Shown here: positions 1,506 through 29,158 of the stretch, piece after piece
How the letters are laid out: each line of letters opens with the position of its first letter
Position numbering within the stretch: position 1 is the stretch's first letter
From: a virus
Length of the DNA stretch: 29,159 nt
Reading direction: 5' to 3' (one strand)
Virus record (IMG/VR): IMGVR_UViG_3300037963_001250
Location: 1 to 29,159 of that record
Position numbers and translations under genes: made by a program
The notes under the pieces: generated by a model
What the model was told of the DNA's origin: nothing
The model's input: the letters and a program-made list of their open reading frames with translations, nothing else
Databases searched by the model: none

Positions 1506-1660
1506 TGTTTATTACTATAATAAGAAACGGTATAATGTTAGGAGTTAGGCACTTTGAACCCGACGAGATTAGAAGTTATTACGAAATTCATATATACTTA
1601 ATATTATTTCAAATTAATATATTTATAACAAATAAAATTAATGAAAATGAAAACAGTTAA
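1502..1660 (+). CDS. Small uncharacterised protein (52 aa)
   Basis: An ORF starting at the ATG at 1502 overlaps the methyltransferase stop in an ATGA junction and ends 20 nt inside the next gene. The peptide starts MMFITIIRNGIMLGVRHFEP and has an acidic stretch, then a hydrophobic stretch around residues 28-44. The tight coupling on both sides, and the fact that it fills the only gap in this operon, support translation. The reading frame is open upstream to 1391, but that part runs through the methyltransferase gene and is probably not used. Function is unknown. The hydrophobic tail could be a membrane anchor or a buried beta-strand. Confidence 0.5.
   Translation: MMFITIIRNGIMLGVRHFEPDEIRSYYEIHIYLILFQINIFITNKINENENS
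1618..1628 (+). promoter_or_regulatory. TATATTTATAA element (partial copy of the late motif)
   Basis: An exact TATATTTATAA sits 12 nt before the ATG at 1641. This is the downstream half of the two-part motif seen at 6208, 14730, 15781 and 18335. Here the upstream GAACAA half is absent at the expected 18-nt offset (positions 1600-1605 read aatatt). It may be a degenerate promoter or chance in AT-rich DNA. Confidence 0.25.
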
Positions 1661-2537
1661 CAGCGTAAGTGGTGGTCAAACATCAGCATATATATCAGCT
1701 AAATATCCTGCTGATTATAATATTTTTGCTTTAGTAAGAATTGAAGCAGAAAGAACAATTAAGGATAAAAAAGTAATACAATACATAGAAGATAAAATAC
1801 AGAAACCTTTTATAGCTACAGCAGAAGATGATATTATAATAAAAACTATGATAGATTTAGAACAGTATATAGGAAAAGAGATAATTTGGGTAGCAGGTGA
1901 TACTTTTGATGAAGTAATAAAAAACCATAATGGTAATGTACCTAATTTATTTCGTAGGTGGTGTACTGTATTACTAAAATTAGAACCAATGTTTAATTGG
2001 TGGCTAAAAAATATTAATGAAGTAGTTGAAATGAGAATTGGTTTTAGGGCTAATGAAACAAGAAGAAAAGACAATCAAACTAAAAGATTAAATAAACAGG
2101 GTTATTTAGAATATAAACACATAGTAGGTAAACATAAATCAGGTAGAAATAAATGGGGAATGACAGCTTGGCAAAAACCTAGATACCCTTTAATAGAAGA
2201 TAATATATATAAAGATAACGTACAGAAATTTTGGTCAGACAAACCAGTAAAGTTTGCACCTATTAATAATTGTGTTGGTTGTTTTCATCAACAGCTAGTA
2301 TTATTAAGAAAAAGATTTGATTGGTTTCCTGAAAAAATGAAATGGTTTACTGACAAAGAGGGTAATAAAAATTTAATAAAAAAAACAGAAAACAATAAAC
2401 ATCACAAAAATTTATGGAGAGCAGGATATGATAATATACCTTTAAAAAAAGCTTCAAAATTATTTAAACAAACAAGTTTATTTGATATAAACGAAACTGA
2501 TTTTAATGAATGTGATAGTGGTTATTGTGGACTATAG
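1641..2537 (+). CDS. PP-loop ATPase, PAPS reductase-like family
   Basis: 298 residues. The N-terminus carries a PP-loop, SGGQTS, at residues 10-15, the ATP-pyrophosphatase signature of the PAPS reductase/DndC-like superfamily. An RRWCT..LK segment around 105-113 resembles the substrate-binding Arg-Cys-Thr of these enzymes. Cys211 and Cys214 form a CxxC and Cys291/Cys296 a CxxxxC near the C-terminus; with Cys108 they could bind a metal or an Fe-S cluster. The family includes sulfate-assimilation reductases, tRNA thiolases and DNA phosphorothioation enzymes; the sequence does not say which applies here. Its position right behind the methyltransferase makes nucleic-acid modification an attractive guess. 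A second ATG lies two codons downstream at 1647. Confidence 0.7.
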   Translation: MKMKTVNSVSGGQTSAYISAKYPADYNIFALVRIEAERTIKDKKVIQYIEDKIQKPFIATAEDDIIIKTMIDLEQYIGKEIIWVAGDTFDEVIKNHNGNVPNLFRRWCTVLLKLEPMFNWWLKNINEVVEMRIGFRANETRRKDNQTKRLNKQGYLEYKHIVGKHKSGRNKWGMTAWQKPRYPLIEDNIYKDNVQKFWSDKPVKFAPINNCVGCFHQQLVLLRKRFDWFPEKMKWFTDKEGNKNLIKKTENNKHHKNLWRAGYDNIPLKKASKLFKQTSLFDINETDFNECDSGYCGL

Positions 2538-5089: not shown

Positions 5090-6209
5090 TGCTAATACAA
5101 GAATTGTAGTTAATCAAGGTGGTACAAGAAGCAGTAAGACCTATAGTTTAGCACAACTTATAATACTAAAAGCATTACAATCAAAAGGTAAAGTATATAC
5201 AATTTGTAGAAAAACATTACCTGCCCTTAAATCTTCTGCGTATAGAGATTTCTTTAATATATTAGAAAGTCACAATTTATACAATCCTGATAATCACAAT
5301 AAGTCTGAGCTTACATATAAGTTAAACAACAATACAATAGAGTTTATTAGTGTTGACCAACCTGCAAAGGTAAGAGGTCGTAAAAGAAACTATGTTTGGT
5401 TAAATGAAGCTAACGAGTTTAGTTTTGAGGATTGGGTACAGCTAACACTAAGAACTACAGAAAAAATATACTTAGACTTTAACCCCTCTGATCCGTACAG
5501 TTGGATATATGACAATGTTATAAATAGAGATGATTGTACTTTTATTAAATCAACTTATTTAGACAATCCTTTTTTACCTGATGAAACAATAAAGGAAATA
5601 GAAAGGCTAAAACAATTAGATAGTAACTATTGGCAAGTTTATGGAAAGGGTGAAATTGGTAGTATGTCTGAGCAGGTTTTTAGGCAATTTGAACTATGTA
5701 ACAATATACCAACAGAAGCTAATTTAGTGGCTATAGGTATGGACTTTGGCTATTCTAACGATCCGACAGCTATAGTAGAGGTATATAAGCTAAATGATGA
5801 TTTATTTATAAATGAATTATTATATAGTAAAGGACTAACAAACCAAGATATAGCAAACAAATTAAGAGAATTAGGAATTACAAGACAGACAGAAATTATA
5901 GCAGATAGTGCAGAACCTAAAAGTATAGAAGAAATACATAGACTAGGCTTTAATGTTAAAGGAGCAAAGAAAGGAGCAGATAGCATTAACATGGGTATAG
6001 ATATTTTAAGAAGATATAAAATACATATAACAAAGAAAAGTACAAACGCAATAAATGAGTTTAAGTATTATAAGTGGCTTGTAGATAAAAATGGTCAAGT
6101 AATAAACAAACCTGCTACAAATCAATTAGACCACCTTATAGACGCTGTAAGATATGTTGCATTAAATAAGCTAACTACTAATTATAGTGGTAAGTATTAT
6201 ATATTATGA
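5040..6209 (+). CDS. Terminase large subunit
   Basis: 389 residues, an ATP-driven packaging motor and nuclease. The Walker A is GGTRSSKT at 27-34. A Walker B-like segment, VWLNEANE, is near 117-124. The C-terminal RNase H-like nuclease shows a GMDFGYSNDPTA segment near 232 with its first Asp, an IADSAEPKS segment near 285, and NQLDHLIDAVRY near 365 with the last metal ligands. This matches the PBSX/terminase_3-like group. No in-frame ATG exists upstream of the ATPase: an in-frame TAG at 5034 leaves TTG at 5040 (or 5049) as the start. A late-promoter motif overlaps the stop. Confidence 0.92.
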   Translation: MKLLNLKGTVVLQKNLNANTRIVVNQGGTRSSKTYSLAQLIILKALQSKGKVYTICRKTLPALKSSAYRDFFNILESHNLYNPDNHNKSELTYKLNNNTIEFISVDQPAKVRGRKRNYVWLNEANEFSFEDWVQLTLRTTEKIYLDFNPSDPYSWIYDNVINRDDCTFIKSTYLDNPFLPDETIKEIERLKQLDSNYWQVYGKGEIGSMSEQVFRQFELCNNIPTEANLVAIGMDFGYSNDPTAIVEVYKLNDDLFINELLYSKGLTNQDIANKLRELGITRQTEIIADSAEPKSIEEIHRLGFNVKGAKKGADSINMGIDILRRYKIHITKKSTNAINEFKYYKWLVDKNGQVINKPATNQLDHLIDAVRYVALNKLTTNYSGKYYIL

Positions 6210-6236
6210 ACAAAAACAACAATTTTATATTTATAA
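6208..6236 (+). promoter_or_regulatory. Late promoter motif, copy A (tail module)
   Basis: GAACAA (6208-6213), 12 nt, then TATATTTATAA (6226-6236), ending 3 nt before the ATG of the tail chaperone gene. Three other copies in the window keep exactly the same spacing. If it is a promoter, the transcript would start at or next to the start codon, so translation would be leaderless or nearly so. It overlaps the end of the terminase gene. Confidence 0.55.
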
Positions 6237-6239
6237 CAA

Positions 6240-13022: not shown

Positions 13023-14731
13023 CAATAGAAGTAGAGGCAGATATAAAAGGTGCTATAGATAGCATTGGAAAAATAGAAGAGGGTGTTAAAGATATAGGGC
13101 AAACTGCAAAAAAACAAAAAGGTGCAATAGAGGGTTTAGCTAAAGGTTTTAGGGGTGTAGGACTTGCTATGAAAGCAATAGGTATAGGAATAGTTTTAAA
13201 ACTTGTAGACCAATTAGGTCAAGCTATGATGAAAAACCAAGAAATAGCTGACACAGTATCAACTGCATTTAATATGGTTGGTTTAGTATTTAATAAAATT
13301 ATTAGAACAGTAAAAACAGTATTTGATAGAATTACAGGACTAACTGATAACTTTGACGCTTTAGGTAGAATAATGTCAAACTTAATGACATTAGCAATAA
13401 CACCACTAAAATTAGCTTTTAATAGTGTAGCGTTAGTAATTAAAGAAGTACAGTTAGCTTGGGAGAAATCCTGGTTAGGTAAAGGTGACCAACAAAGAAT
13501 AGCAGAACTAACAGCACAAATTACAGGATATAAAGAAGAAATAAGAATAGCAGGAGAAGAGGCTATAAAAGCAGGTCAAGGTATTATAGTTGATTTTAGA
13601 GAAGGTATTAATGAAATAACTAACATGGGTAAAGTAGTTGTTGAAGAGTTTAACAATACTTTTAAAGGTGTTACAGTTAGTAGTTTAAAAGATCAAGCTG
13701 AAGCAATAACACAAGCTACAAATAATTTAAGTTTGTTAGAAGCTAAACACGAAAAAATAATAAAAGAATTTGAAATACAAGCAGAAGTACAAAGAAAAAT
13801 AAGAGACGATGTTAGTAACAGCATACAAGATAGAATAAAAGCTAATGATAAACTATTAGAAATATCAAAAGAACAAGCAGACGCAGAAATAAAAGCCCTA
13901 AAGGAACAACAAGGAGCTTTATCTGCACAATTAGCTATAGAAGTTGACAATGTAGAAATTAAAGCACAAATAGAAAGGTTAAATAATGCAATATTAGAAA
14001 CAGAATTTAGAAAGACACAATTAGAAAAAGAAAGTGGTGAGCAAAAAAATGCCTTATTAGCAGAAGAAAGAGCTAATAAACAAGAGTTAGCTAAAATAGG
14101 TGTAGACGAAGTAGAAAGACAAAAAAAAGAATTTGAAAATGAAAGAGATAGATTAGTTAAAATGGCAGAACTGACTATATCTAACGAAGAAGAAAGAAAT
14201 GCAAAGATTTTGCAAATTAAAGAAGAGTTTAATGCTAAAATAAATAAAATAGACGCTGACGAAAAAGATAAACAAGACGCAATAGATAAACAAGAATTAG
14301 CTGATAAAATAGCTTTAGAAGACGCTAAAAGACAAGCAATACAAAGTGGTTTGTCTGGTATAGGAGCATTAGTAGGTGAAAGTAGTAAGGCAGGTAAGGC
14401 AATAGCTGTAGCAAATGCAACAATAGATACTTTTGCAGGAGCAAATAAAGCTATAGCACAAGGAGGTATAGTAGGTATAGCTAGTGCAGTAGGAATTATA
14501 GCTACAGGTTTAGCAAATGTTAGAAGTATATTACAAACAGATATACCAGGTGAAAGTGGTGGGGGTACAGCACCTGCTACACCAGAAGTAGTAGATAATA
14601 CTGTACCTGTAGCACCAACATTTGGAGCAATAACAGCAGACGCACCACCTGTACAAGCCTTTGTAGTAGAAAGTGATGTTAGTAGTAGTCAGGCTTTACA
14701 GAACGATTTAAATTTACAAGCTACGTTATAA
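13007..14731 (+). CDS. Tape measure protein
   Basis: 574 residues. The N-terminus (1-60) is Ala/Gly/Lys-rich and helical. Hydrophobic stretches follow around 60-145 (including GIGIVLKLVDQL and LAITPLKLAFNSVALVI). Residues 215-440 are a long, charged coiled-coil-like region. A Gly/Ala-rich, membrane-like segment near 450-500 and an Ala/Pro/Val-rich tail end the protein. This composition and the position behind the tail chaperone and tail genes are typical of tape measures, which set tail length and line the tube. By the rule of about 0.15 nm per residue, a tail near 85 nm is expected. Confidence 0.8.
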   Translation: MAEKVTIEVEADIKGAIDSIGKIEEGVKDIGQTAKKQKGAIEGLAKGFRGVGLAMKAIGIGIVLKLVDQLGQAMMKNQEIADTVSTAFNMVGLVFNKIIRTVKTVFDRITGLTDNFDALGRIMSNLMTLAITPLKLAFNSVALVIKEVQLAWEKSWLGKGDQQRIAELTAQITGYKEEIRIAGEEAIKAGQGIIVDFREGINEITNMGKVVVEEFNNTFKGVTVSSLKDQAEAITQATNNLSLLEAKHEKIIKEFEIQAEVQRKIRDDVSNSIQDRIKANDKLLEISKEQADAEIKALKEQQGALSAQLAIEVDNVEIKAQIERLNNAILETEFRKTQLEKESGEQKNALLAEERANKQELAKIGVDEVERQKKEFENERDRLVKMAELTISNEEERNAKILQIKEEFNAKINKIDADEKDKQDAIDKQELADKIALEDAKRQAIQSGLSGIGALVGESSKAGKAIAVANATIDTFAGANKAIAQGGIVGIASAVGIIATGLANVRSILQTDIPGESGGGTAPATPEVVDNTVPVAPTFGAITADAPPVQAFVVESDVSSSQALQNDLNLQATL

Positions 14732-14758
14732 ACAATTTTAAACAATTTATATTTATAA
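14730..14758 (+). promoter_or_regulatory. Late promoter motif, copy B (head module)
   Basis: AAACAA (14730-14735, one base off the GAACAA form), 12 nt, TATATTTATAA (14748-14758). It lies in the 29-nt gap after the tape measure stop and ends 2 nt before the ATG of the protease gene. Spacing equals the other copies. As in copy A, a promoter here would give a leaderless or almost leaderless transcript. Confidence 0.5.
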
Positions 14759-14760
14759 GT

Positions 14761-16549: not shown

Positions 16550-17530
16550 ATGAAAAAGTACAATTTATCAAAAGATTATCAATTTGACATTGATGCTTCA
16601 GCATATACATCGTATGCTGGTAAATTAGCATTGCCTTATGTAACTGCTGCTGTTAAAACACCTGATACAATAGCAAATGGGTATGTAAGAGTAATTGATG
16701 GTCTTAACAAATCAGGTAGAATTACAAATGTAGGTATAACAGATCCAGTTCAATCAGCAAGTGGCTGTAGTTTTCAAGATGGTTCTAACTCATCACTAAC
16801 TGAGCAAGTAGTTACATTAACTGATATGAAAGTTAATGAGGAAATTTGTAGAGGAACTATATTTCCTACATGGATTGGAGAAAATATGGATAGAAATGGT
16901 AACTTACCAGGAACTTTTCAAGATTTCTTATTACAAACAATTGCTGCTAAAGCTGCATCACATATTGAAAATATTATTTGGAAAGGCTCTGGCGATCCTG
17001 CATTAGTTGGTTTTCAATCAGATGATGGTTCTTTAGATGATACAGGGATTAATGCATCTGCAATGAAAAGTTTCCACGAAGTAGATTTCTCTGCAGGAGC
17101 AATAGACACTTCTAACGTAATATCAAGATTGAATGAAGTTTTAGACAAAGTAAATGCAAGTACAAATATTATCAACGCACCAGGCTTTGGTTTTTATATG
17201 AATAGAAAAACTTACTCTATTTATGCACAGGCTTTAGCTGCAGCAACTACTTTCCAACAATTAGGTGCAGCAGGTAACTTTACTTCATTAACATTTATGG
17301 GATTTCCTATTTATGTTTGTCCAGGAATGTTCAACGATACTATTGTTGCTACATATCCTGAAAATTTAGTTGTAGGTACTAACTTACTAACTGACTATAC
17401 TGAGGCTAATGTAATTCCAACATTCCAATATGACGGTTCTGACAATGTTAGAGTTGTTATGAGGTTTGCAATGGGAGTACAAACAGCAGTTGCAGATGAT
17501 GGTGTATTTGGAACTAATGCACATGCATAA
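16550..17530 (+). CDS. Major capsid protein (HK97-fold type)
   Basis: 326 residues. No signal peptide. The N-terminal arm is followed by a stretch with KVNEEICRGTIFPTW, a long helix-rich region with FQDFLLQTIAAKAASHIENIIWKG (residues about 123-147), and a C-terminal beta-rich part with TFMGFPIYVCPGMF and VGTNLLTDY. These are typical of capsid proteins of Bacteroidota siphophages. Location after protease and scaffold and before a strong terminator supports the call. The fold name is inferred from family resemblance. Confidence 0.8.
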   Translation: MKKYNLSKDYQFDIDASAYTSYAGKLALPYVTAAVKTPDTIANGYVRVIDGLNKSGRITNVGITDPVQSASGCSFQDGSNSSLTEQVVTLTDMKVNEEICRGTIFPTWIGENMDRNGNLPGTFQDFLLQTIAAKAASHIENIIWKGSGDPALVGFQSDDGSLDDTGINASAMKSFHEVDFSAGAIDTSNVISRLNEVLDKVNASTNIINAPGFGFYMNRKTYSIYAQALAAATTFQQLGAAGNFTSLTFMGFPIYVCPGMFNDTIVATYPENLVVGTNLLTDYTEANVIPTFQYDGSDNVRVVMRFAMGVQTAVADDGVFGTNAHA

Positions 17531-18216: not shown

Positions 18217-18240
18217 TTAATAAATCGTTACTCAATTTAA

Positions 18241-18271
18241 AAGAGGGTTATCTATTTGGTAACCCTTTTTT
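18241..18271 (+). terminator. Rho-independent terminator after the major tail gene
   Basis: Stem AGGGTTA / TAACCCT (18244-18250 with 18260-18266), extendable to about 10 bp with A-T and G-U pairs. The loop is 9 nt and a run of T follows (18266-18271). It ends the tail-protein transcript ahead of promoter copy D. Confidence 0.8.
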
Positions 18272-18334
18272 ATTAACTAAACTTTACAATTATTATAATT
18301 ATATAAAAAAACTTTTATAAAATATACAAGTTGT

Positions 18335-18363
18335 GAACAATATAATGACTTTTATATTTATAA
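18335..18363 (+). promoter_or_regulatory. Late promoter motif, copy D (portal block)
   Basis: GAACAA (18335-18340), 12 nt, TATATTTATAA (18353-18363). It lies in a 231-nt intergenic region, after a terminator, with no gene overlapping it. This isolation is the best evidence that the motif is a promoter and not a coding coincidence. The expected start point lies at the foot of the hairpin at 18366. Confidence 0.65.
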
Positions 18364-18365
18364 TT

Positions 18366-18426
18366 GTAATAGTGTTATTTAGGTAAAGCCACGCACGTAA
18401 ACGCCCTGTTTTACCTACACTATTAC
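18366..18426 (+). ncRNA. Candidate structured 5' leader RNA
   Basis: A nested hairpin: an outer 10-bp perfect stem GTAATAGTGT (18366-18375) with ACACTATTAC (18417-18426), a one-sided 5-nt bulge (TATTT), then an inner perfect 7-bp stem AGGTAAA (18381-18387) with TTTACCT (18410-18416), extendable by G-U and C-G pairs. The apical loop (18388-18409) is about two-thirds G+C in a genome of roughly 30% G+C. It begins 2 nt after promoter copy D and ends 21 nt before the ATG at 18448. No T-run follows, so it is probably a leader rather than a free sRNA or terminator. I do not recognise it as a known RNA family. Confidence 0.5.
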
Positions 18427-18447
18427 TTAATAAAAATAAACTATATT

Positions 18448-18648
18448 ATGGCTTGGAAAGTAAAAGACGAATACAAAGACTACAAACCCTTAAATATGAA
18501 CTTATCATTTGGTGAGCTTAAGCCTCATCAAGTAAATAATTTAAGTGAAGAAGTAAAGAAAAAATATTTTACAAACACAACTAAATCAAAAAAGAAAAAA
18601 AAAGTAGTAGAAGATGATTTAGATTTTATAGGTGGTCACAATGAGTAA
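18448..18648 (+). CDS. Small uncharacterised protein (66 aa)
   Basis: 66 residues: an N-terminal segment with Lys, Asp and Tyr, a LSFGELKPHQVNNLSEEVKK stretch, then a poly-lysine run (KSKKKKK) and an acidic VVEDDLDFIGG end. It is the first gene after the structured leader and is coupled to the next gene by an 8-nt overlap. The strong basic-then-acidic tail suggests a small structural or assembly factor. No family recognised. Confidence 0.55.
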   Translation: MAWKVKDEYKDYKPLNMNLSFGELKPHQVNNLSEEVKKKYFTNTTKSKKKKKVVEDDLDFIGGHNE

Positions 18649-18784: not shown

Positions 18785-19451
18785 TTTTAATTGGGACTCT
18801 TCACTTGGTGTTGTTTCTCTATATCCTATTGTTTTTAGAGAAAATATTAGCAGTAATGTTGATCCTACATTAATTGATAATGGTGTAGCAGGTTCAGGCA
18901 AAAAAACTTTACTAGGTTTAGCAAGAGGTAGAAAAACTAATTTTATTAGAGCCTTTTCTTTTCAATCTACTATAGACAATGCTACTTATCAACCTACATA
19001 TACTCATAACGATAGATATTGGGAGTTTAGGGTACAATTATGGTATCCTACAACTACTAATATAAGTATTGCTGACATAGGAAATAACAGAGTTTTAGGT
19101 AATTTTGTTGCTCCTGTTGGTGAAACTTATGATATTACAATGTATTATGGTGAAAGAGATTTAAGACTTTCTACTAAAACATTAATACCTAATGTAAATA
19201 TAGTTTTAAATGTAACAGTAGACCAAGCTTATCAAAATTTAGAAGCAAATAATCCCTTATCTTATTACACACAATATACAAATAATGACCAAGTACCTTT
19301 ATTAACAGCAGGTTTTTGCAATACTAGACAAAACATACAGGGTTTACCTGCTTCTAACGCTGAAACAGCAACACCATGTGATAATATAGTAGATATTAAT
19401 CAAGATGTACAATACGGTGTACAAACTTGGACTCCAACATACGAATTATAA
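18771..19451 (+). CDS. Uncharacterised structural-region protein (226 aa)
   Basis: 226 residues, no signal peptide. It is beta-rich, with blocks such as GKKTLLGLARGRKTNFIRAF, EFRVQLWYPTTT, and ETYDITMYYGERDLRLSTKT. It lies between small genes and the portal, so a virion part is likely. Its stop overlaps the ATG of the portal gene (TAATG). No family recognised. Confidence 0.5.
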   Translation: MGVYNFNWDSSLGVVSLYPIVFRENISSNVDPTLIDNGVAGSGKKTLLGLARGRKTNFIRAFSFQSTIDNATYQPTYTHNDRYWEFRVQLWYPTTTNISIADIGNNRVLGNFVAPVGETYDITMYYGERDLRLSTKTLIPNVNIVLNVTVDQAYQNLEANNPLSYYTQYTNNDQVPLLTAGFCNTRQNIQGLPASNAETATPCDNIVDINQDVQYGVQTWTPTYEL

Positions 19452-21625
19452 TGAAGAAAAAAGACAATATATCAGTAATACATTTAGCAGAATATAACCT
19501 GCCTACTATTACAGAAACTAATAACAAAGACTATATACAATTTGGTTCTGATAATTTATACCCTCAATATTTATTAGAATTATACAATGGTAGTAGTATA
19601 AACAACGCAATTATAAAAGGTGTTAGTAGTATGATATATGGTGAGGGTTTAGACGCTACAGATAGACAAGAAAGTGACGCTAAAAAAGAAAGTTGGTTAG
19701 CTTTAAGTAGTCTGTTACACAATTCACCAAAAGATACTTTAAAATGTTTAGCATTTGACCTTAAATTATTTGGTATGTGCTATGTAAACACAATATGGAA
19801 TAGACCAAGAACAAAAATAGTAGAAGTTAGACACATACCTGCACAATATATAAGAAGCGGTAAAGCTGACGCTTATGGTAAAGTAAATGAATATTACTAT
19901 AGTGCAGATTGGGAAAACACAAGAAAGCACAAGCCTAGGTACTATAAAGCATTTGACTTAAAAGATAGGTCAGACGCTAACCAAGTATTATGTATAAAAG
20001 ATTACTCTCCTGGTTCTTATTATTATGCTACTCCTGACTATCAGGGTTCTACTAGCTACATACAATTAGATATGGAAATAGCACAATTTCATTTATCTAA
20101 TATAAAATCAGGTATGTTTCCTAGCATGGCTATTAATATGGCTAACGGAATACCTACAAGAGAAGAAAGAAGAACTATAGAACGTCAAATAAATGCAAAG
20201 TTTGGTGGTTCAGGTAATGCAGGTAAAATACTATTAACGTTTAATGACGGTAAAGATACTGCTCCTGAAATAGTACCGATAAATGCTAATGACAATTCTG
20301 ATAGTTACCAATTTTTATCACAAGAAACTACAAGAAAAGTTTTAACAGGACATAGAGTTACAAGTCCTTTATTATTTGGTGTAAAAGGTGACGGTAGTGG
20401 CTTTGGAAATAATGCAGATGAACTAAGAGATAGTTACAGCTTATTTAACAATACAGTTATAAAACCATTTCAAAATACGCTTTTAGAGGGTTTAGAGCCA
20501 ATATTTCACGCTAACGGTATAGACCTTGATTTATATTTCAAAACGCTTAAACCAGCTGATTTTATTGACATTAGTAATGTTGGTAAATTAGACGAAGATG
20601 AACAAGAGAAAGAGGGAATAGATACAGGCAATAATGAGCCAATAAAAAAAGAATTTAAATCATTAGAAGATATAGACACTAAACCTACTAAAGGTATGGT
20701 AGAAGAAGCAAAAATGGGTTTAGAAATGCGTAAAGAACATGGCAGAGGTGGAACTATGGTTGCTGTAGCTCGTGCTAGGTCAATAGTTAACGGACAAAAT
20801 TTAAGTTTAGACACGATTAAGAGAATGAATAGTTTTTTTGCAAGGCATGAAGTAGATAAAAAAGCAGAGGGTTTTAGTCCAGGTGAAGAGGGCTATCCGT
20901 CAGCAGGTAGAATAGCTTGGGCATTGTGGGGTGGTGACGCAGGGCAAAGTTGGGCAAAAAAAAAAGTCCAAGAAATAGAAAACGTTGAAGAATTAACTGA
21001 ACTATCTGACGAAAGTTACAATAGTATAATAGAAAATTTAGAAGGTCAAAAAATAAATAGCGAAGAATGGGAAATTGTAGAAGAAAGAGATTATGGTAGT
21101 GATGAAAGCTATGAAGATTGGGCAAATAGATTGATACAAAAAAAAGAGAATTTTGCAGTAAATGAAATAAAATCTAATGAGGACAAGTTTAGTTATTTAG
21201 ACAAGTCTATATATAGAGTTAGGTTTAAGTATGCAGTAGGATCGACAAAGGCTAAAAAAACAGGCAATAAATCTAGACCATTTTGTGAAAATATGATGAG
21301 GTTAAGTAGAGGTGGTTTTGTTTGGAGAATAGAAGATATTGATAAAGCAAGTCAAGCAGGAGTTAACAAACAATTAGGACATAAAGGTAGAAAGTACGAT
21401 TTGTTTAAATTTAAGGGTGGTATATACTGTAGACATAAATGGAAAGAGATATTATATAGACTAAAAGCAGGAACAGAATTAAAAAACGGTCAAAGCTTAG
21501 ACAATGACTATAATAAAGTTAATAGCATACCAAAAAGTTATGTTAGAAACCCTAGAGGAATAAAAGAAAGTAAAATAGCACCTGTAAATATGCCTAATCA
21601 AGGAGCATACCCAGGAGCAAAATAA
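19451..21625 (+). CDS. Portal protein with extra C-terminal domains
   Basis: 724 residues from the ATG at 19451. A TTG at 19427 would add 8 residues, but the ATG gives the tidy TAATG junction. Residues 1-390 are a portal body: DYIQFGSDNLYPQYLLELY, SSMIYGEGL, IPAQYIRSG and a SFGNNADELRDSYSLF-like stem. Residues about 413-505 hold a second module with GMVEEAKMGLEMRKEHGRGG and YPSAGRIAWALWGGDAGQSW. Residues about 582-672 hold a third, Cys-containing module with RPFCENMMRLSRGGFVW and GGIYCRHKWKEILYRL. The two extra modules resemble domains found in phage head proteins. The portal is unusual in being about 13 kb from the terminase and behind the capsid gene. Confidence 0.78.
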   Translation: MKKKDNISVIHLAEYNLPTITETNNKDYIQFGSDNLYPQYLLELYNGSSINNAIIKGVSSMIYGEGLDATDRQESDAKKESWLALSSLLHNSPKDTLKCLAFDLKLFGMCYVNTIWNRPRTKIVEVRHIPAQYIRSGKADAYGKVNEYYYSADWENTRKHKPRYYKAFDLKDRSDANQVLCIKDYSPGSYYYATPDYQGSTSYIQLDMEIAQFHLSNIKSGMFPSMAINMANGIPTREERRTIERQINAKFGGSGNAGKILLTFNDGKDTAPEIVPINANDNSDSYQFLSQETTRKVLTGHRVTSPLLFGVKGDGSGFGNNADELRDSYSLFNNTVIKPFQNTLLEGLEPIFHANGIDLDLYFKTLKPADFIDISNVGKLDEDEQEKEGIDTGNNEPIKKEFKSLEDIDTKPTKGMVEEAKMGLEMRKEHGRGGTMVAVARARSIVNGQNLSLDTIKRMNSFFARHEVDKKAEGFSPGEEGYPSAGRIAWALWGGDAGQSWAKKKVQEIENVEELTELSDESYNSIIENLEGQKINSEEWEIVEERDYGSDESYEDWANRLIQKKENFAVNEIKSNEDKFSYLDKSIYRVRFKYAVGSTKAKKTGNKSRPFCENMMRLSRGGFVWRIEDIDKASQAGVNKQLGHKGRKYDLFKFKGGIYCRHKWKEILYRLKAGTELKNGQSLDNDYNKVNSIPKSYVRNPRGIKESKIAPVNMPNQGAYPGAK

Positions 21626-26175: not shown

Positions 26176-26911
26176 AAAAGACTATAGACTTAGACTAACT
26201 AAAGCAGAACACGATTTAATAAAAGAAATGCGTGTATCTAATGGTGGTGTAGTAAATAATGTGCTTATTGTAGGTGATATTCATGCACCCTTTGAACTAA
26301 AATACAATAAATACTTAGAGTTTTGTTTGTCAAAATATGAGCAATTTGACTGCACAGAGGTTGTGATGATTGGTGATATTATCGATAACCATTATTCCTC
26401 ATATTGGGAAACAAGCATAGACGCTGAACATACAGGTAAGCAAGAATTAGATGTAGCTATAAGTAGAATAGCAGATTGGTATAAAGCATTTCCAAAAGCA
26501 ACTGTAATTATAGGAAACCACGATAGGATAATAATGCGTAAAGCACAAACATCAGCAATACCTAGCAAGTGGATAAAAAGCTACAAAGAAGTGTTAGAAG
26601 TACCTGGTTGGGAATTTGTAGAAAGATATGTAAAAGACGGAGTACAATATTTACATGGTGAGGGTGGTACAGCACGAACAAAATGCAGAGCAGATATGAT
26701 GAACACAGTACAGGGGCATTTACATACACAAGCATATTGTGAGCATTATGTAGGTCAAAATTTTAGAGTGTTTGGTATGCAGGTAGGTTGTGGTATAGAC
26801 CACGAAAGTTATGCTATGGCTTATGCTAAATACGGTAAAAAACCTGCTATAGGTTGTGGTGTTGTTTTAAACAATGGAAAGTTACCTATAAATCTACTAA
26901 TGGAACTATAA
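26150..26911 (+). CDS. Calcineurin-like metallophosphoesterase
   Basis: 253 residues from GTG 26150; the frame is also open from a TTG at 26138, and no ATG lies nearby. All blocks of the family are present: GDIHAPFE, GDIIDNH, GNHD, LHGE and a late GHLH. These hold the two-metal centre that cleaves phosphate esters. The substrate cannot be told; phage members act on nucleotides, RNA ends or cyclic nucleotides, including some defence signals. It overlaps the holin gene and ends the rightward block before the bidirectional hairpin. Confidence 0.8.
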   Translation: MWKNLKKIKKDYRLRLTKAEHDLIKEMRVSNGGVVNNVLIVGDIHAPFELKYNKYLEFCLSKYEQFDCTEVVMIGDIIDNHYSSYWETSIDAEHTGKQELDVAISRIADWYKAFPKATVIIGNHDRIIMRKAQTSAIPSKWIKSYKEVLEVPGWEFVERYVKDGVQYLHGEGGTARTKCRADMMNTVQGHLHTQAYCEHYVGQNFRVFGMQVGCGIDHESYAMAYAKYGKKPAIGCGVVLNNGKLPINLLMEL

Positions 26912-26914
26912 AAA

Positions 26915-26967
26915 AATAAGGGCAAAAATACTACTATGTTATCCCTAATAGTATAATTACCCTTATT
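26915..26967. terminator. Bidirectional hairpin between convergent units
   Basis: AATAAGGG (26915-26922) pairs with CCCTTATT (26960-26967), and inside it ATACTA (26928-26933) with TAGTAT (26949-26954). On the minus strand the stem is followed by a run of seven T, a good terminator for the leftward genes; the plus-strand T-run is weaker. A second stem GAGTAGC (26970-26976) / GCTACTC (26993-26999) overlaps the last gene stop. Confidence 0.7.
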
Positions 26968-26993
26968 CCGAGTAGCAAAGTAATGAAAAAAAG

Positions 26994-29060: not shown

Positions 29061-29158
29061 AATTTTATAAAATGTAAAATATTTTTATATAAATTAGGCA
29101 CAATGAAAAAATCAATACTAGCTTCTACACCTTTTTTAATTTTAAACAAATGTCTTCT
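29061..29158. repeat. Terminal direct repeat, copy 2 (circular closure)
   Basis: Exact copy of bases 1-98. It should be collapsed with the first copy when the genome is closed. Confidence 0.9.

Follow-up and report, generated by a model that had tools for sequence, protein, structure and literature searches.

Stem-loops joined to promoters are known from T4-type phages, in which PeSL promoter-stem-loop cassettes were reportedly described by Arbiol in 2010 and by Comeau in 2014. In PMC4503421, PeSLs appear, like the element presented here, as promoter-joined stem-loops and are linked to the shuffling of phage genes, but they are treated there as promoter-terminator motifs, whereas at the locus under study the promoter stays in place and a non-terminator hairpin with a constant loop is added to it. 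The gene 43 operator of phages T4 and RB69 is an mRNA hairpin whose top and loop are conserved between phages, and it shares with our element the position 5' of a start codon on a phage mRNA as well as a conserved top or loop (PMC3014915). However, this operator regulates one gene, is bound by the product of that gene and overlaps the ribosome-binding site (PMC3014915), while the element described below is unrelated to it in loop, stem and downstream genes, and comes and goes among phages. The put RNA of phage HK022 is a cis-acting phage RNA of about 70 nt located directly behind its promoter, as is our hairpin, but it is composed of two stem-loops with a known polymerase contact (PMC9378689), in contrast to the one stem-loop with a constant loop found here. 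Racrs are likewise solitary small phage RNA elements, often placed directly behind a promoter; they copy CRISPR repeats, whereas the family reported here has a variable stem and a loop that occurs in no matching host genome (PMC10651486 for Racrs).

The window, that is the whole stretch of 29,159 nucleotides analysed, carries an exact 98-nt terminal repeat (1-98 = 29061-29158) and probably represents a complete genome that is circular or terminally redundant. Its host is tentatively assigned from the likeness of the terminase to those of Flavobacterium phages (about 39% identity) together with the promoter type. That the hairpin in the window and its kin are a structured RNA is well supported. 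Refolding upheld the geometry proposed in the sequence-only reading, namely an outer stem of 10 bp, a 5-nt bulge, an inner stem of 7-9 bp and a GC-rich loop (Table 1). The inner stem has seven Watson-Crick pairs (AGGTAAA/TTTACCT), which a G-T and a C-G pair extend to nine, and the 20-nt loop region has a G+C content of 65% as compared to 29% for the genome. Folding of 18335-18448 gives a minimum free energy of -26.0 kcal/mol, as compared to -12.3 +/- 2.85 kcal/mol for shuffled sequences (z = -4.81); none of 200 shuffles of the whole leader and none of 1000 flank shuffles in the window folded as well, which rules out a chance fold. The same reading had held that the hairpin is not a terminator, that it ends 21 nt before the ATG at 18448 and that a TAG at 18370 lies in the frame of this ATG, and each of these points was borne out, since the T-run expected of an intrinsic terminator is absent 3' of the window hairpin and both the distance and the frame are as given.

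Table 1. Positions of the hairpin, its neighbourhood in the window and further family members in their own records
Feature	Position	Strand	Details
Promoter copy D, Bacteroidota type	18331-18364	+	-33 TTG at 18331-18333; -7 box TATATTTA at 18353-18360; motif conserved in relatives
Insertion of 73 nt containing the hairpin	18365-18437	+	missing from all aligned relatives, which read TATAATAAACTATATTATG
Outer stem, 5' arm	18366-18375	+	GTAATAGTGT; pairs perfectly with 18417-18426, 10 bp
Bulge, 5 nt	18376-18380	+	TATTT
Inner stem, 5' arm	18381-18388	+	AGGTAAAG
Family loop with closing pair 18389-18408	18389-18408	+	CCACGCACGTAAACGCCCTG
Inner stem, 3' arm	18409-18416	+	TTTTACCT
Outer stem, 3' arm	18417-18426	+	ACACTATTAC
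First gene 3' of the hairpin, 66 aa	18448-18648	+	no family match; present in hairpin-free relatives
Portal protein gene of the block	19445-21625	+	PHROG portal family, E 3.9e-78; Pfam Phage_portal just below cut-off
Loop copy in L083	1583-1602	minus	exact 20 nt
Loop copy in L084	1645-1664	plus	exact 20 nt
L244, fifth member	1635-1713		found among L084 relatives by whole-region likeness; diverged loop

Promoter copy D is one of four copies of its motif in the window (6204, 14726, about 15777 and 18331), each of which combines TKRTRAACAA-like letters with a spacer and a TATATTTATAA-like box. The -7 box TAnnTTTG of Flavobacterium psychrophilum spans -12 to -5 (PMC9723704), so the box of copy D places the predicted +1 at 18365, which would be the first inserted base. 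As the left edge of the insert falls on this predicted start, the portal-block mRNA would begin with the hairpin, and its leader would have grown from about 10 nt originally to about 83 nt with the hairpin at the 5' end. The earlier proposal that the transcript begins at the hairpin foot agrees with this within one base, the foot lying at +2 of the start predicted from the -7 box. Two other copies (6204-6239 and 14726-14760) end 2-3 nt 5' of an ATG, and hence their transcripts would be nearly leaderless. A base-paired 5' end protects the ompA mRNA from 5'-end-dependent decay, and a foot at the very start of the predicted transcript combined with a strong fold would suit a 5' stability element of this kind, in which the paired end shields the mRNA and the loop is of little importance. 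This explanation seems quite improbable to us, as it leaves the constant loop unexplained and as the copies in three other family members (L084, L244 and L106, see below) lie away from any predicted 5' end. An antitermination or processive antipausing RNA like put, in which the nascent hairpin binds RNA polymerase, would match the location just 3' of a promoter and 5' of a long block of genes as well as the size of about 70 nt, but put has a second stem-loop (PMC9378689), the other members are without a predicted promoter upstream and two of them are terminator-like, all of which makes such a function highly improbable.

The hairpin is not an original part of this promoter region. Among the relatives, which were collected via the portal protein (80 related contigs) and many of which are 92-98% identical over the promoter, TTTATATTTATAAT joins AAACTATATTATG directly, and the window has 73 additional bases between them. 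With a simple pattern the contiguous empty site was observed in 39 related loci, and a covariance search of 79 related loci revealed the hairpin in none. The insert is shared only with 3300037961_000320, a contig from another metagenome with 99.745% identity over 12,174 bases; an assembly artefact is unlikely, since this independent contig has the same hairpin despite 31 other differences over that length. The simplest reading would be that the hairpin was gained in the lineage of the window. At the edges of the insert a 3-nt repeat is present, AAT at 18362-18364 recurring at 18435-18437. An ancestral leader of promoter D is ruled out by the relatives without hairpin. Thus, of the structured RNA leader suggested earlier, the structured RNA stands by virtue of its fold and of stem covariation, while a leader proper to promoter D is refuted by the insertion and by the location of the other members elsewhere; a packaging signal, also suggested, is contradicted by the near-identical phages that lack the hairpin.

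Several further features of this region and genome were noted in their own right. The slot from the terminator to promoter D (18217-18330) holds lineage-specific stretches in many relatives (L009, L029, L030, L035, L037, L038, L052 and L065), several of which read as small opposite-strand genes and mark an accessory-gene hot spot, and in L007, L011 and L016 the direct repeat TAGCTAGTCTACGACAATTACGCTAT occurs twice between terminator and promoter. Between convergent genes, 26910-26972 forms a strong hairpin of -25 kcal/mol, which is probably a two-way terminator and is kept, with its top shortened or changed, in L009, L011, L017, L028 and L052. Evolution is mosaic, as the portal of L003 is 99% identical to that of the window, with 63% for 16550-17530 (head protein) and 23% for gene 18771.

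Searching IMG/VR with the loop alone retrieved all 20 bases in two more AT-rich phage contigs, L083 and L084, and a subsequent search with a 16-base pattern retrieved a third such contig, L106, whose loop TCACGCACGTAAACGCCCTA has 18 of the 20 bases and differs by replacement of the closing C-G with T-A. The 18 loop bases between the closing pair are identical in the window, L083, L084 and L106, and in each of the latter three the loop caps a stem of unrelated sequence. Including L244, five members have the family loop pattern CAYGCACGWAAACGCMCY on a stable stem, three of which (L083, L084 and L106) came from searching with the loop itself. Flank shuffles folded as well as the natural sequence in 0/1000 cases for L084, 1/1000 for L083 and 29/1000 for L106, the fold of L106 on its own being weak. 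Other matches to the 20-base loop and 16-base patterns were without the family hairpin, and broader loop patterns gave many further stretches, with no family hairpin among the matches listed. In L084 the hairpin is an insertion too, because in L232, whose terminase is 97% identical to that of L084, the same two genes adjoin with no hairpin between them (AAACTAGAAGACAATGG); no edge repeat is evident at this site.

The sites occupied by the other members are intergenic, downstream of a gene or within a divergent region. The hairpin of L244 occupies a different gene border from that of L084, with a DUF5681 gene downstream, that of L106 follows a VRR-NUC gene and that of L083 is in a divergent region; the latter two are terminator-like, each with a T-run, located 3' of the hairpin in L106. 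A noncoding stretch of about 180 nt behind the hairpin of L106 (155-340, minus strand; TTAGCGGGGAGATATATTTGGCAACTAACCC...) also looks structured. All five copies are sense to the next gene and lie outside genes, except that the one of L084 overlaps the end of the preceding gene. The genes downstream vary among members, which argues against one cis-regulated target. Comparison of strand strength as a sign of RNA function gave a mixed result: the sense strand has the better fold in L083, L084 and L244 and the poorer one in L106, and in the window the two strands are equal.

Covariation was examined in the homologous stems of L084 and L244, where 16 of 17 pairs are kept, four having changed on both sides and four compatibly on one side. 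Under equally many random substitutions in the arms, P is 4e-5 for the pairs kept and 0.0099 for the double changes, and the share of paired cells, 95.5%, falls to 25-43% when the partner is slid; column shuffles of the two-row alignment (17/500 and 35/500) are weak. Within the loop, positions 4 and 17 have changed jointly from C-C to U-A. A covariance model from only L084 and L244 recovers the window (E 0.003-0.004), L083 (0.009) and L106 (0.07), and nothing beyond these over 1.5 Mb; since the three share the loop, this recovery serves as a specificity check and not as independent proof. A MAFFT alignment of the five members leaves the stems unaligned and was excluded from the pair counts, and the window stem is without alignable homologue. 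The covariation that the sequence-only reading had proposed to look for was unobtainable in the clade of the window, whose relatives lack the hairpin, and was instead found as compensatory changes in L084/L244 and in the closing pair of L106 (T-A vs C-G). The sense orientation and the stem covariation together point to RNA. Identical loops on unalignable stems (window, L083 and L084) stand against homologous stems with four loop differences (L084/L244), two patterns that one rate of change would not give; either the loop is fitted to a target that differs between hosts, or separate stems were each provided with a loop. A loop that stays constant letter for letter while its stems vary freely suggests that the loop is recognised by a protein or another RNA, and points to what may be an undescribed RNA element recognised by something.

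No Rfam 15 family matched the window at the gathering score, and only chance-level matches were obtained for 18300-18470, in line with the earlier remark that no named RNA resembles the hairpin. A riboswitch or small ribozyme could account for the strong conservation of the loop, in which a GC/GC step and a GWAA turn occur, but with neither an Rfam match to such classes nor a shared downstream gene, and with an 18-nt apical loop that is small for a ribozyme, we give this explanation the least credence of all. A presumed likeness between the loop and stretches of 16S rRNA was also considered. No family hairpin was found in named phages and plasmids, and weak blastn matches to Flavobacterium phage FCL-2, a filamentous phage and a Vibrio phage were without it. 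Within the species genome collection, three GC-rich genomes (L085-L087) alone contain the exact loop 19-mer, without the stem, and the AT-rich Bacteroidota-type genomes lack it; these matches were taken as chance and a host-borne repeat or REP-like element was rejected. No second copy with up to three mismatches exists in four member records (window, L083, L084 and L106, one copy each), nor any copy at this threshold in 39 related records. As to elements of the REP or MITE type, multiple copies and a consistent target-site duplication were lacking and the ends are unrelated between members. A mobile DNA hairpin, acting as a single-stranded substrate of a recombinase or transposase with no role in expression, would explain the insertion at two sites empty in close relatives (window and L084) and the AAT repeat at one of them, yet it is very unlikely in view of the single copy per member record searched, the lack of constant ends, of a repeat at the L084 site and of any bacterial genome copy with this stem, and the invariable sense orientation to the next gene.

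The presence and absence of the hairpin among close relatives points to an accessory and not an essential part. With this sporadic pattern a trans-acting decoy RNA, which would titrate a host factor such as a defence protein, an RNA-binding protein or a small RNA and whose genome position would only secure expression, agrees nearly as well as a cis-acting element; the single copy in member records, variable position, letter-exact loop and site behind a promoter also suit it, and Racrs, frequently located directly behind a promoter, demonstrate the use of such RNAs by phages (PMC10651486). We nevertheless regard a decoy as unlikely, as nothing points to a separate small RNA. As far as the species genome collection shows, the hairpin is not a CRISPR-repeat mimic in particular, its exact 19-mer occurring in none of the AT-rich Bacteroidota-type genomes there, and a mimic would have a constant stem. 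Rather unlikely, too, is that the family represents a new class of accessory phage RNA, with a constant 18-nt loop on exchangeable stems, passed among Bacteroidota phages in leaders and at gene borders and serving as host-factor decoy or in counter-defence.

The explanation towards which we lean, tentatively and short of thinking it probable, is an accessory cis-acting RNA recognition hairpin that Bacteroidota-type phages gain and lose, with a near-invariant loop of 18-20 nt and a freely varying stem. Following its insertion at the start point of the late-type promoter D, the portal-block mRNA would have acquired a 5'-terminal hairpin, whose loop may be bound by a putative host or phage protein, and this binding would modulate translation or stability of the downstream message in cis. 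By analogy with phage operators, the hairpin is probably protein-bound and operator-like, its action would be at the RNA level and in cis, and a cis-acting protein-bound hairpin may be considered the most economical mechanism. The terminator-like look of two members counts against this explanation, as does a sample of five members with three obtained via the loop.

The structured RNAs of Bacteroidota phages have been charted only sparsely. Here, pairs of near-identical phages, one carrying and one lacking the hairpin, constitute a natural experiment on the downstream message or on phage fitness, and the exact loop on unrelated stems shows which bases matter.
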